Shown here one piece after another: positions 6,947 to 10,716 of a stretch of DNA of 64,000 bases. The position numbers were made by a program, and so were the translations under genes. Each line of letters starts with the position of its first letter. The stretch's first letter is position 1. The notes under the pieces are model-generated. The model was not told the DNA's origin. It was given only the letters and a program-made list of their open reading frames with translations, and made no database searches. The stretch comes from Dechloromonas sp. CZR5 (GTDB lineage Bacteria; Pseudomonadota; Gammaproteobacteria; Burkholderiales; Rhodocyclaceae), in assembly GCF_008711155.1 (NCBI RefSeq), contig NZ_VUYQ01000005.1, forward strand, positions 62,001 through 126,000. Direction: 5' to 3'.

Positions 6947-7702
6947 TCAGGCCGACTTGCGACGACGCGAGAAGCCAACACCCAGAAGGCCGATACCAAC
7001 CAGAGCCAGAGAAACAGGCTCCGGAACTTGCAGGCTGCCTTGGCGCAACGAAGCGTAGTGGATGGTGCCGCCCATGTTCAGGACTTCGCCCCAACCGTCA
7101 CCCCAGAAAGTAACTTTTGCGAAAGTGGCAACGTCGTCGAAAGCGGCGACGAAGACACCTGCGCCACGATTGGTCAGGAAGCCGTCACCAAAAACGGTAG
7201 AGTGGCCAACCCGGATCGGGGCATTGTTATCGAAGGAGATATACAGGTCGGAAACTTGGCAGCAGGTAGCCCAGTCGCCCACTTCGAAACCGATGGCGTT
7301 CACGGATTTACCCTTGGCGCCGAAGTCAAGTACCAGACCACTACCCTTGGACGACGATCCATCGCCGGTGCCGTGACCCGTACCCGTGCCTGAGGGGTCA
7401 ATGCTGACCATGTAGCCGGAGGTTTGGCGGCTGGGGGAGGAGTTGTAGAGCGTGTAGATGCTCGACGACATGCTCGAATTATTTGCACGATAGACCGTGT
7501 AGTCGCCGCGATCAACGACGGTACCGCTCAGCCGGGTGCTCCATACGTCATGCGTTGCGGTACTGCCAGCATTGGCCACCGTGGTGTTGAAATTGGCCAA
7601 GCCGCCGTCGAAGTCGTTGTAGACGGTGGCGATGGTTGCGTTGGCGGAGCCGGCGGCAACAGCAAGCGAGAGCAGTGCGAAAGCTTTCTTCAAATTGGTC
7701 AT
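6947..7702 (-). CDS. PEP-CTERM sorting-domain protein
   Basis: The 251-residue protein has an N-terminal signal peptide (MTNLKKAFALLSLAVAAGSANA) and ends in a canonical PEP-CTERM signal: VPEPVSLALVGIGLLGVGF followed by a RRRK cluster. Such proteins are exported, then cut and processed by exosortase (EpsH/XrtA), and are linked to exopolysaccharide and floc or biofilm formation. The body is rich in Ser, Thr, Gly and Asn and contains an SGTGTGHGTGDGSSSKG stretch. It has one CC pair but no recognisable enzyme motif. The gene is monocistronic on the minus strand, behind a sigma-54 promoter and next to prsT. No exosortase gene is in the window. Confidence 0.88.
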   Translation of the reverse strand: MTNLKKAFALLSLAVAAGSANATIATVYNDFDGGLANFNTTVANAGSTATHDVWSTRLSGTVVDRGDYTVYRANNSSMSSSIYTLYNSSPSRQTSGYMVSIDPSGTGTGHGTGDGSSSKGSGLVLDFGAKGKSVNAIGFEVGDWATCCQVSDLYISFDNNAPIRVGHSTVFGDGFLTNRGAGVFVAAFDDVATFAKVTFWGDGWGEVLNMGGTIHYASLRQGSLQVPEPVSLALVGIGLLGVGFSRRRKSA

Positions 7703-7771: not shown

Positions 7772-7787
7772 AGCATGGAGCGTGCCA
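7772..7787 (-). promoter_or_regulatory. Sigma-54 (-24/-12) promoter of the PEP-CTERM gene
   Basis: On the minus strand the sequence reads TGGCACG-CTCC-ATGCT, matching the RpoN consensus TGGCACG-N4-TTGCW with one mismatch and exactly ten bases between the essential GG and GC. Transcription would start near 7760, about 58 bases before the PEP-CTERM ATG. RpoN with the PrsK/PrsR two-component system is known to control PEP-CTERM genes in related bacteria. Confidence 0.8.
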
Positions 7788-7857
7788 GTGATTTTCTTTT
7801 GAAGTTTATTTTCAATAAATCAATGCCTTATTTCTTCGTGAAAAGGCCGTTCTTGGC

Positions 7858-7877
7858 GAAGTGTAAAAGAAGTGTAA
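7858..7877. repeat. Tandem GAAGTGTAA repeats, possible activator site
   Basis: GAAGTGTAA occurs at 7858-7866 and again at 7869-7877, one helical turn (11 bases) apart. They lie about 100-117 bases upstream of the expected sigma-54 start site, the usual position for a bacterial enhancer-binding protein. PrsR is the natural candidate but this is inference. Confidence 0.5.
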
Positions 7878-7923
7878 GAAATTCCGACGGTGCGCCTTCT
7901 AGAATTTTCTTGACTGGACCTCT

Positions 7924-10716
7924 TCAGATTTTGCTTTGTTCGCGCAGACGAAGCGCTGTTTCCTGTTCGTGCTGATTCAGCTGTGGTTCCTGAATTTTTT
8001 TGAGAATGTCGCTTGCCCCATTCTTGTCGCCAGACGAAAGGAGTGCTTCCGCCAAATGGAGTTTCAGTGTCGCCGCATCGGGGGCAAGATTGCTCGCAGC
8101 TCGCAGATAGGTGACCGCCGACTTGGAATTACCAGCCTGATGTAATGCTACTCCGTAAGTATCCAGAATTGCAGGGTTGGCGGGCTGCAGGCTGGCCGCC
8201 GTTTGCGCGTTGACTAGGGCCTCTGGTTGTTTCAATTGGATTTGAGCCCACGCGAGATCATTGAGAAGTGCAGGGTTGTGAGGGGCTAATGTGGAGGCTT
8301 TTTGCAAGTATTCGACAGCTTTGGTGGTGTTTCCCTGCCGGAGTTGTCGTTGCCCGATGAAGGCTAGTAATTGGGGATGGGTAGGGAATTTGCGCAAGGC
8401 ATCCGTCAGTTCCTGATCGGCCGATGACTGCCGGCTCATCACATCGAGTAGTTGTGCCGCCGATATGGCAGCCTCCGGCATGGCTCCCGCTTTTGCCGCA
8501 TTGGTGAACTGTTGTAGTGCGTCGTCTTTTTTGCCTGCCAGCAGCAGAACATCTCCTTCAAGCAGCATGGCAGTGCGCCTGTTGCTCTTCTTTTCTCCCA
8601 GTTGTCGGGCAATTGAGATTGCCTCCAGCAAATTGTCCCTGGCGGTCAGCTTGGCGAGCGCTATATACGAAGCAGGTTCGTAGGGTGTGTCGGTCATCAG
8701 GCTTCGGAGGATGGTGCGTGCTTCCTGCATGCGTCCTGCACGGACATTCAATTCGGCCAGTTTCAAGCGCCAATCCGTGCGTTGGGGATAATTGGCGGCG
8801 AGCTTGCGATAGACATCCATGGCTTGTTCGGACTTGCCGAGGCGCTCATATACGTTGGCGAGAAGTCCGATCGATTCGGCGTGGGCGTTCGCGATTGAGG
8901 CGCCTGACTGGGCACTCGATAGCGCTTCGTCGTATTTCCCGGCGCGGATTAGTTCATCAACGAGCATTGCCCGGATCGCCGTGATGTTTGGATTCCCCGA
9001 AACGCCATTTTCCAGCACCTGAATAACGCTGGGATCATCTCCGTTCGAGCGGCGTAGCAGGCGTAGGTATTCGATATAAGTCTCCGGAGTACTGGGCTTG
9101 GCAGCGACCGCGAGCTCGTAGTGGCGCAGCAGGTCACTTTGTTCACCGTTCGTACGAGAGAAGCTGGCCAGCGCATTCAATGCGGGTTGATAGTCAGCCT
9201 TGATTTCGAGCGCCTTGAGCGCAGCCTGGCGCGCTGCAGGAATATCTTTCTGGGTCTCCTTGAATGCGGCAAGAGTGAGGTAGGAGCCCGGCTCTTTTGG
9301 GCGGCTCTGTAGTGCGTGATCCACCAGTTGCCGCGCAAGCTCGAGGTGGCCGGAGTTCAGGGAAAGAACAATGCTGCGGTCGCGCAGGATGGGATCGTCC
9401 TGGACATGGGGAAGTGCTTCCTTGAGATAGGCTCCCGCTTCGGTGGTATTTTTTTCCATAATACCGAGCTCGGCCAGGCGCATCAGGCTCTGACCATCCT
9501 TTGGGTTCAGAGCGAGCAGTTTTTGAAGGGTTTTCCGCGCGCCGCCAATATCTTTCCTGAGCACTGCCAGGTCGGCACTGAGGGTGAGCAGACGACGATC
9601 GTCCGGAGATATGCGAAGCCCCCGTTCTATCGTTTCGGCTGCGGAGCCTTGATTTCCATTGCGCATTTGCGCAGTCGCATACATCTGGATTGCCGCAAGA
9701 TTGCGTGGTTGGTCATGCAGGACTTTGCGGAGCCGTTCCTCGGCCATCGGTGCGTTGCCATTCTGAAGTTCTGCCGAAGCGACGATCAGATTGGAGCGAA
9801 GATGGGTCGGAGCGACCGCCAGTACCTTCAGACCGGCCGCATGGCTTCCTTCGATGTCACCCTTTTCGGCAAGGATGACGGCATCGAGATAGTGAGTCCA
9901 GTAGTGGTTCGGGGCTCGTTTTCTCAGGTTGTCGCGGACGGCCGCCGCATCGGCAAACTGGTTGGTGCCGACGAGCGCATCGCCATACTCTCCGGCAATG
10001 CCAACATGCCAGGGAGCAATTTCATAGGCGGCCTTGATTGCGCCAAGTGCTTTGACGGGGTCGCCTGCCGCTGCGTAGGTGCGATACAGTGCCCGATAGG
10101 CCCACCAGATAGCGGCATCATTTTTGTCAGTCAGCTTGATCGCTGCGTCAAGGCTCTCGATGGCTTGTGCCGTTTTGCCTTGCTGTGCGAAGAATTGGCC
10201 CTGCGCCAGCTTGCTCAGCGTTGTTTCAGCTGGGAGTGCCGCCAGCAACTCGGAAGCTTGCCTTGGGTGACCGAGGGCGGTCTCGGCCATGGACAGGACA
10301 GCCTTTAGATCGCTGTTGCCGGCTGCTGTATTGAGTGTGCGCTTCGAGAATTCGCTGATGATCTTGGCGTGTTCCCCTCGATCAAGCATCATCAGCGCGA
10401 TTCTGGGGATCAGTTTCTCAGCATCTCCGCCATTGTCGAGCGCCTTTCGCAGGTGTTGCTCCGCTCCCACTGAATCAGGAACGCGCTCAAGTGCATTAGC
10501 CAATGCCAAGCGGGCTTCCAGAGACTGCGGATTATCCTGGACCGCATTCTTGAATTCGATCACCGCCCCGCTGATCTCTCCCTTCCCGAGTAATTCGATT
10601 CCCGAGGTCAGCGGGTCTTTGTTGCATGCGCTAAGCGCAGCGGCAATCATCAATGCGATGGTGATCTTGCTAAAACGCAGCGAGCAGCGGAAGGTTGACG
10701 GGCTGGTCGAGAGCAT
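7924..10716 (-). CDS. prsT: PrsT-type PEP-CTERM system TPR-repeat lipoprotein
   Basis: The 930-residue protein begins with a lipoprotein signal (hydrophobic stretch, lipobox LSAC, cysteine at about residue 31) and is then almost entirely tetratricopeptide repeats. Examples are AVIEFKNAVQDNPQSLEARLA near the N terminus and AVEYLQKASTLAPHNPALL near the C terminus. Length and architecture match PrsT, the large TPR lipoprotein that accompanies the PEP-CTERM/exosortase system in exopolysaccharide-producing Gram-negatives, where it is thought to act in polymer assembly or secretion at the periplasmic face. It has a good Shine-Dalgarno (TTGGAG). prsT usually sits within the eps/exosortase locus; here it is beside one PEP-CTERM gene only, with lipA upstream. 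Another very large TPR protein is the alternative. Confidence 0.85.
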   Translation of the reverse strand: MLSTSPSTFRCSLRFSKITIALMIAAALSACNKDPLTSGIELLGKGEISGAVIEFKNAVQDNPQSLEARLALANALERVPDSVGAEQHLRKALDNGGDAEKLIPRIALMMLDRGEHAKIISEFSKRTLNTAAGNSDLKAVLSMAETALGHPRQASELLAALPAETTLSKLAQGQFFAQQGKTAQAIESLDAAIKLTDKNDAAIWWAYRALYRTYAAAGDPVKALGAIKAAYEIAPWHVGIAGEYGDALVGTNQFADAAAVRDNLRKRAPNHYWTHYLDAVILAEKGDIEGSHAAGLKVLAVAPTHLRSNLIVASAELQNGNAPMAEERLRKVLHDQPRNLAAIQMYATAQMRNGNQGSAAETIERGLRISPDDRRLLTLSADLAVLRKDIGGARKTLQKLLALNPKDGQSLMRLAELGIMEKNTTEAGAYLKEALPHVQDDPILRDRSIVLSLNSGHLELARQLVDHALQSRPKEPGSYLTLAAFKETQKDIPAARQAALKALEIKADYQPALNALASFSRTNGEQSDLLRHYELAVAAKPSTPETYIEYLRLLRRSNGDDPSVIQVLENGVSGNPNITAIRAMLVDELIRAGKYDEALSSAQSGASIANAHAESIGLLANVYERLGKSEQAMDVYRKLAANYPQRTDWRLKLAELNVRAGRMQEARTILRSLMTDTPYEPASYIALAKLTARDNLLEAISIARQLGEKKSNRRTAMLLEGDVLLLAGKKDDALQQFTNAAKAGAMPEAAISAAQLLDVMSRQSSADQELTDALRKFPTHPQLLAFIGQRQLRQGNTTKAVEYLQKASTLAPHNPALLNDLAWAQIQLKQPEALVNAQTAASLQPANPAILDTYGVALHQAGNSKSAVTYLRAASNLAPDAATLKLHLAEALLSSGDKNGASDILKKIQEPQLNQHEQETALRLREQSKI

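Follow-up and report, generated by a model that had tools for sequence, protein, structure and literature searches.

A PEP-CTERM gene of Dechloromonas sp. CZR5 lies behind a predicted PrsR box, an IHF-like site, and a sigma-54 promoter spaced in whole helical turns

The stretch of DNA analyzed here (64,000 nucleotides of one contig of Dechloromonas sp. CZR5, referred to below as the window) holds on its minus strand a gene for a 251-amino-acid protein (6947 to 7702). The C terminus of this product carries a PEP-CTERM domain, as assigned in an earlier sequence-only reading of the same DNA, and the domain scores over the cutoff with both TIGR02595 (23.4 bits; cutoff, 16) and PF07589 (26.2 bits; cutoff, 20.7). 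The protein also bears a weak full-length likeness to the flocculation protein PepA (NF033554), at 40.9 bits and below the cutoff of 80. Upstream on the same strand lies prsT, which encodes a TPR lipoprotein (7924 to 10716; TIGR02917, 417 bits; cutoff, 312.2). The PEP-CTERM gene is preceded, 69 bases upstream of its ATG at 7702, by the candidate sigma-54 promoter TGGCACGCTCCATGCT (7772 to 7787, minus strand), which has the −24 GG and −12 GC elements, agrees with the consensus at 11 of 12 scored positions, and is predicted to control the gene. The strict pattern TGGCAYRNNNNWTGCW finds this promoter and no other place in the window (0.12 matches expected; a match was present in 12 of 100 shuffles), and the near-consensus promoter that had been proposed before the ATG stands. 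A search for a sigma-70 promoter between 7650 and 8000 found none, and the two terminator-like matches in that interval are on the plus strand and therefore do not belong to the PEP-CTERM gene on the minus strand.

The genome encodes the regulators that such a promoter would call for. A prsK-prsR-prsT tandem lies elsewhere in it (L011), with scores of 689.9, 776.3, and 493.8 bits, all over the cutoff even though prsK and prsT are cut by the ends of the locus, and RpoN (474.3 bits) and IhfA (145.4 bits) are encoded as well, also over the cutoff. Based on these genes, PrsR, RpoN, and PrsK are the probable regulators of the PEP-CTERM gene, as the sequence-only reading had suggested. The genome thus holds at least two prsT-type genes, one in the window (7924 to 10716) and one in the prsK-prsR-prsT row (L011, 2854 to 4329). 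Within the genus the system is patchy, since 8 of 26 genomes (G006, G008, G010, G011, G015, G019, G021, and G022) lack a PEP-CTERM match at an E value of 0.01.

Where would PrsR bind? A matrix trained on 87 PEP-CTERM upstream regions, all from genomes other than this one, has its best place in the window on the minus strand at 7892 to 7870, at 25.55 bits; the second-best place on either strand of the 64 kb scores 10.7. This is the predicted PrsR box, CGTCGGAATTTCTTACA (7873 to 7889, minus strand). It corresponds to motif 1 of Haft and colleagues, whose 2006 paper reported, for 99 of 167 proteobacterial PEP-CTERM genes, an upstream 17-nucleotide (nt) motif that ends in TTTACA, followed by a spacer of 62.8 nt (standard deviation, 10.6; range, 32 to 92) and a sigma-54 motif, with PrsR as the suggested binder (PMC1569441). 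Compared with the motif as the text of that paper gives it, the box here is likewise 17 nt long, with a final hexamer (CTTACA) that is one base off. The rest of the described arrangement is also in place, with a box-to-promoter spacer of 85 nt that falls within the range of 32 to 92, a sigma-54 motif, 69 nt to the start, a PEP-CTERM gene downstream, and prsK, prsR, and prsT in the genome. These features support the claim that the PEP-CTERM gene is preceded by a sigma-54 promoter and, farther upstream, by an enhancer-type site, but the latter is the box at 7889 to 7873, whose left half, GTCGG (7888 to 7884), falls outside the interval that the sequence-only reading had marked (7772 to 7877).

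The box is a family feature. For comparison we took the upstream regions of 96 PEP-CTERM genes in 18 genomes of the genus, the CZR5 genome itself contributing 9; these came from 179 PEP-CTERM matches in the 18 genomes, the 97 better-scoring of which were processed and 96 analyzed (one region, L033, runs off its contig, and another, L028, lies at a contig start). An unseeded search for spaced words in this set ranked GTCG-N7-TTAC first, in 49 of the 96 regions as against 0, 0, and 1 in three shuffles. The box is present at 10 bits or more in 54 regions, a fraction close to that of Haft, and absent at that score from the other 42. The sequence-only reading had staked its proposed site on recurrence before other PEP-CTERM genes of the genome, and the box does recur, in six of the nine PEP-CTERM genes found there. 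The three without it at 10 bits (L005, L008, and L010) may be controlled otherwise.

Between box and promoter, at 7818 to 7830 on the plus strand, lies AATCAATGCCTTA, which matches the IHF consensus at 9 of 9 positions. The pattern that we used, WATCAANNNNTTR, is stricter than the published WATCARxxxxTTR (PMC7962754, PMC3897727). It has one exact match in the window, and 0.82 would be expected by chance; the presence of the match is therefore not informative, but its position is. Among 41 of the 54 boxed genus regions, namely, those whose box reaches 15 bits and whose promoter is a clear GG/GC one, a perfect IHF match in the orientation seen here occurs in 11 loops (shuffle mean, 0.2) and in the opposite orientation in 1 (shuffle mean, 0.16); at 8 of 9 positions the opposite orientation is found in 8 of the 41 and is not enriched (shuffle mean, 3.8; largest, 9). 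Outside the genus but within the order, perfect matches number 9 and 10 for the two orientations in 96 loops (57 genomes, 22 families), against shuffle means of 0.35 and 0.44.

We take the center of the IHF bend to be the W end of the consensus, after the IHF-DNA structure. With the bend centered there, both orientations share the same registers, at about 33, 44, 55, or 65 bp from the box and about 8, 19, or 30 bp before the promoter. Of 45 genus loops, 30 have an IHF-like site (at least 8 of 9 positions) in register (shuffle maximum, 5), as do 47 of the 96 other-genus loops, in 18 families (shuffle maximum, 7); loops read backwards have none, and about half of the order loops (49 of 96) lack such a site. 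The register centers and their tolerance of 1.5 bp were fixed after the genus and order loops had been seen. A class-wide search for the three modules, made after the registers had been set, is an independent check; it used exact modules, one IHF orientation, and arms of 15 to 45 and 5 to 35 in 369 genomes. It returned 24 places in 17 genomes, the present locus included, and no control match was seen. In the 21 places outside the order (15 genomes), the first arm is in register in 20 and the second in all 21, where 35% would be expected. At the present locus, box and bend center are 55 apart and bend center and promoter 30 apart, each arm being one turn above its mode.

The distance from box to promoter, 85 nt at the present locus, follows the same ladder. 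In 39 genes of the genus set, the distances group near 42, 52, 63, 74, 85, and 94. Over 41 genus genes this distance is periodic (R = 0.81), and the promoter-to-start distance, taken as a control, is not (R = 0.17; null mean, 0.29). A search of 399 genomes of the order for an exact box and an exact promoter, the gap between them left free, matched 101 genomes with gaps of 61 to 91 and 35 genomes with gaps of 30 to 60, and the backwards-read control matched 2 genomes in each case. At least 196 matches (150 plus 46) from 86 genomes and 29 families were listed. Among the matches listed, 31 fall at 50 to 53, 98 at 61 to 65, 20 at 73 to 75, and 13 at 83 to 85, with valleys at 56 to 59 (1 match), 66 to 71 (4 matches), and 76 to 80 (3 matches); the peaks are thus at 52, 63, 74, and 85, although their heights are not comparable between the sets with gaps of 30 to 60 and of 61 to 91. 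With the main peak set aside, 74 of 91 listed matches fall no more than 2 bp from the ladder of 11-bp steps centered on 63 (45% expected; P = 1e-12). Four matches with a spacer of 55 resemble, judged from their letters, coding sequence for prolyl-tRNA synthetase, and without them the count among the matches listed becomes 74 of 87. The order sequences were hand-chosen: 100 of the 196 listed were fetched (85 plus 15), no genome gave more than two from the first list, some genomes were passed over, and matches of the second list that looked coding were avoided; a crude letter pattern for a PEP-like C terminus is found downstream in 75 of the 100. Across natural promoters, then, loop lengths cluster one helical turn apart. 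The helical turn invoked by the sequence-only reading does apply, though to a different set of elements, since whole turns separate box, IHF site, and promoter.

The geometry was also compared among homologs of the 251-amino-acid protein. One homolog at an E value of 1e-10 was found in 40 genus relatives (G014, 52% identity), and homologs from other genera were therefore used. The nearest, labeled Thiobacillus, have identities of 68%, 59%, and 58% and arms (box to bend, then bend to promoter) of 56/30, 55/30, and 65/31, a geometry that the present locus shares. The genus homolog (L016, 52%) has arms of 43/19, and its IHF site faces the other way; arms of 44/18 and 33/18 are found in L020 (labeled Asaia) and L022 (labeled Elioraea). 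Within the eight homolog loci examined, a box-promoter match was lacking in L021 and L023, the latter matched over part of the protein. It thus appears that geometry is conserved even where, judged by eye, the loop sequence is not. Second full boxes lie farther upstream in two of these loci, at 64 bp in L020 and at 77 bp in L022, roughly six and seven turns away.

In total, the sequence shows three modules that match those of the family, at quantized spacings, and the genome encodes PrsK, PrsR, PrsT, RpoN, and IhfA; we consider it highly probable that this is a PEP-CTERM promoter with a predicted PrsR box, an IHF site, and a sigma-54 promoter. We posit a mechanism in which phosphorylated PrsR would bind the box at 7889 to 7873 and assemble an AAA+ ring, and IHF, acting about 30 bp before the promoter, would bend the 85-bp loop and bring PrsR against the RpoN-RNA polymerase. 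ATP hydrolysis would then open the complex, such that the PEP-CTERM protein would be made only under the PrsK signal. The loop is short and stiff, which would confine the modules to fixed faces of the helix, and evolution would alter both arms mostly by whole turns. We further think it probable, with somewhat less assurance, that many PEP-CTERM promoters across the class, and probably beyond it, are looping devices of this kind, built from a PrsR box, an IHF bend, and a sigma-54 promoter, with quantized arms (about 33, 44, 55, or 65 bp from box to bend and about 8, 19, or 30 bp from bend to promoter) and with IHF facing either way, provided that its bend center keeps its position. Two published observations speak against a simple account: in Geobacter sulfurreducens, the PEP-motif gene GSU1943 is reported to be up about 3-fold in ihf mutants (PMC7962754), which argues against simple IHF coactivation, and a plasmid carrying prsK-prsR is reported not to have restored flocculation to an Aquincola mutant (PMC9850573).

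The proposed mechanism leaves the tandem repeat to be accounted for. Exact copies of GAAGTGTAA do lie 11 bases apart, at 7858 to 7866 and 7869 to 7877 on the plus strand, as the sequence-only reading had noticed, and there is no further exact copy in the window (with up to one mismatch there are 11 matches, as against 5.6 expected). Read on the minus strand, they are part of an 11-bp tandem (7858 to 7879) made up of TCTTACACTTC (unit 1, 7879 to 7869) and TTTTACACTTC (unit 2, 7868 to 7858), identical at 10 of 11 positions, in which unit 1 overlaps the right half of the PrsR box. An 11-bp tandem copy of at least this identity arises in 77 of 20,000 shuffles of the 105-nt region, and a tandem copy of any unit of 9 to 13 bp with at most one mismatch arises in 832 of 20,000; the repeat by itself is thus only mildly surprising.

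Could unit 2 be an accessory half-site? A further PrsR dimer might touch the extra TTTTACAC one turn downstream and so raise occupancy or oligomerization. Unit 2 does contain the right half, TTTACA, on the same face and one turn off, and the Haft paper mentions occasional repetition of motif 1 (PMC1569441). Yet unit 2 lacks the left half, GTCG, a TTACA at +11 from the box is found in 1 of 54 boxed genes, namely, the present one, and the second full boxes of L020 and L022 stand at their 64 and 77 bp rather than at 11. We regard such a half-site as possible but unlikely.

Is the repeat instead the trace of a slipped-strand duplication of one turn, which lengthened the arm between box and IHF site from 31 to 42 nt and kept the phase? 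The identity of 10 of 11, the one-turn unit, and its position in an arm of 42 rather than the modal 31 nt would fit such an event, as would the tandem arrays of 5- or 10-bp period that L172, L184, and L241 hold in the same arm and the tandem copies of 9 to 13 bp in 13 of 141 loops, as against 5.4 in shuffles (largest, 11). In these three loci the arrays follow closely on the box within the loop, and in L184 a 10-bp unit is repeated about three and a half times. Against a duplication, chance tandem copies are not rare, as the shuffles of the 105-nt region show, and the long arm (bend center at 56 and 55 from the box and 30 before the promoter) is found without a tandem copy in the nearest homologs, L017 and L018. 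The extra turn therefore seems older than the repeat, which weakens the duplication reading; we hold it to be unlikely, and slightly more so than the half-site. A long arm without the repeat would leave the latter as chance, an accessory half-site, or a later event.

A different objection concerns the spacing rather than the repeat: do the quantized distances reflect a physical constraint, or the shared descent of a few promoters? Related genes do occur in the sets compared (L002 and L049 are alike), and taking one match per family lowers the support for the phase among the matches listed to a mean of 16.3 of 21, as against 9.5 expected (P of about 0.004). However, different registers occur within single genomes and within single families, all on one 11-bp ladder, both IHF orientations use the common registers, and the 15 genomes outside the order agree in the class-wide search. 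We therefore judge descent to be an improbable explanation of the spacing.

Least probable of all, to the point where we give it hardly any weight, is the model of the sequence-only reading itself, in which the two GAAGTGTAA copies are the enhancer and seat two activator subunits side by side on one face: an exact 9-bp repeat with an 11-bp period at a plausible enhancer distance speaks for it, but the exact spaced repeat has one site in the whole genome, so that no other PEP-CTERM gene there carries it, TTACA-N6-TTACA occurs in 1 of the 96 genus upstream regions (the present locus), the matrix falls from 25.55 to 2.15 bits at the register of copy 2, one turn downstream, and the homologs L016 to L020 and L022 have the box without the repeat. 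As a general motif the repeat is ruled out by the single genome site and the single related upstream region. Judged from these comparisons, the GAAGTGTAA tandem is probably not the recognition motif, and its second copy is incidental or at most an accessory half-site. Two looser patterns were also tried and set aside: GTCGNNNNNNTTTACA with one mismatch has 147 sites genome-wide, as against 173 in a reversed control, and is uninformative, and TGTCGRNNNNNTTTACA with one mismatch matches all 40 genus genomes, including G006, G008, and G015, which have no PEP-CTERM match, and so does not separate genomes with and without PEP-CTERM.

Promoters with an upstream activator site, IHF, and sigma-54 include those of nif, Pu, and others. 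This architecture is classical (PMC7962754, PMC3897727, PMC5263251), and the present locus resembles examples such as the Desulfovibrio orp promoters (PMC3897727) in its activator site, the IHF consensus in the loop, the −24/−12 promoter, and the proposed bending as coactivation. What differs is that here the IHF-like site sits at set registers, in either orientation, before many unrelated genes of one regulon type. In Vibrio, 61 qrr enhancers under LuxO have natural loop lengths that cluster about 11 bp apart (PMC4740811); they belong to one small-RNA family in one genus and have loops of about 80 to 120 bp. In contrast, the clustering reported here spans many PEP-CTERM genes over many families, with loops that are mostly shorter and in which a bend site has been located. 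According to a review, dependence on the face of the helix is a property of one NtrC-type promoter and not of glnA (PMC7408454). Among the closest known systems is pepA of Aquincola tertiaricarbonis RN12, a PEP-CTERM gene adjoining prsT with an RpoN-dependent promoter, a mapped start site, and a predicted enhancer upstream (PMC9850573); pepA lies upstream of prsT, whereas the PEP-CTERM gene here lies downstream of it.

Based on these precedents, the locus is a further case of a known promoter class, and the phased PrsR-IHF-sigma-54 pattern is the part worth following. In the text of the Haft paper the spacer is given as summary statistics, IHF and phasing are absent, and the word "helical" appears only in a reference (PMC1569441); the words "IHF" and "helical" are absent from the Aquincola paper (PMC9850573), and the open-access literature searched yielded no report of IHF or of phasing at PEP-CTERM genes.

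The site to footprint or to mutate is corrected by this analysis to 7889 to 7873 rather than the tandem repeat, and the three-module description is better suited to locating the targets of PrsR in bacteria from the environment and in those that form flocs. Should the phased arrangement be borne out, many natural promoters could serve to test how tightly the phasing of enhancer-binding protein, IHF, and sigma-54 polymerase is constrained; the family would then amount to an insertion experiment on looping by enhancers that nature has replicated many times.
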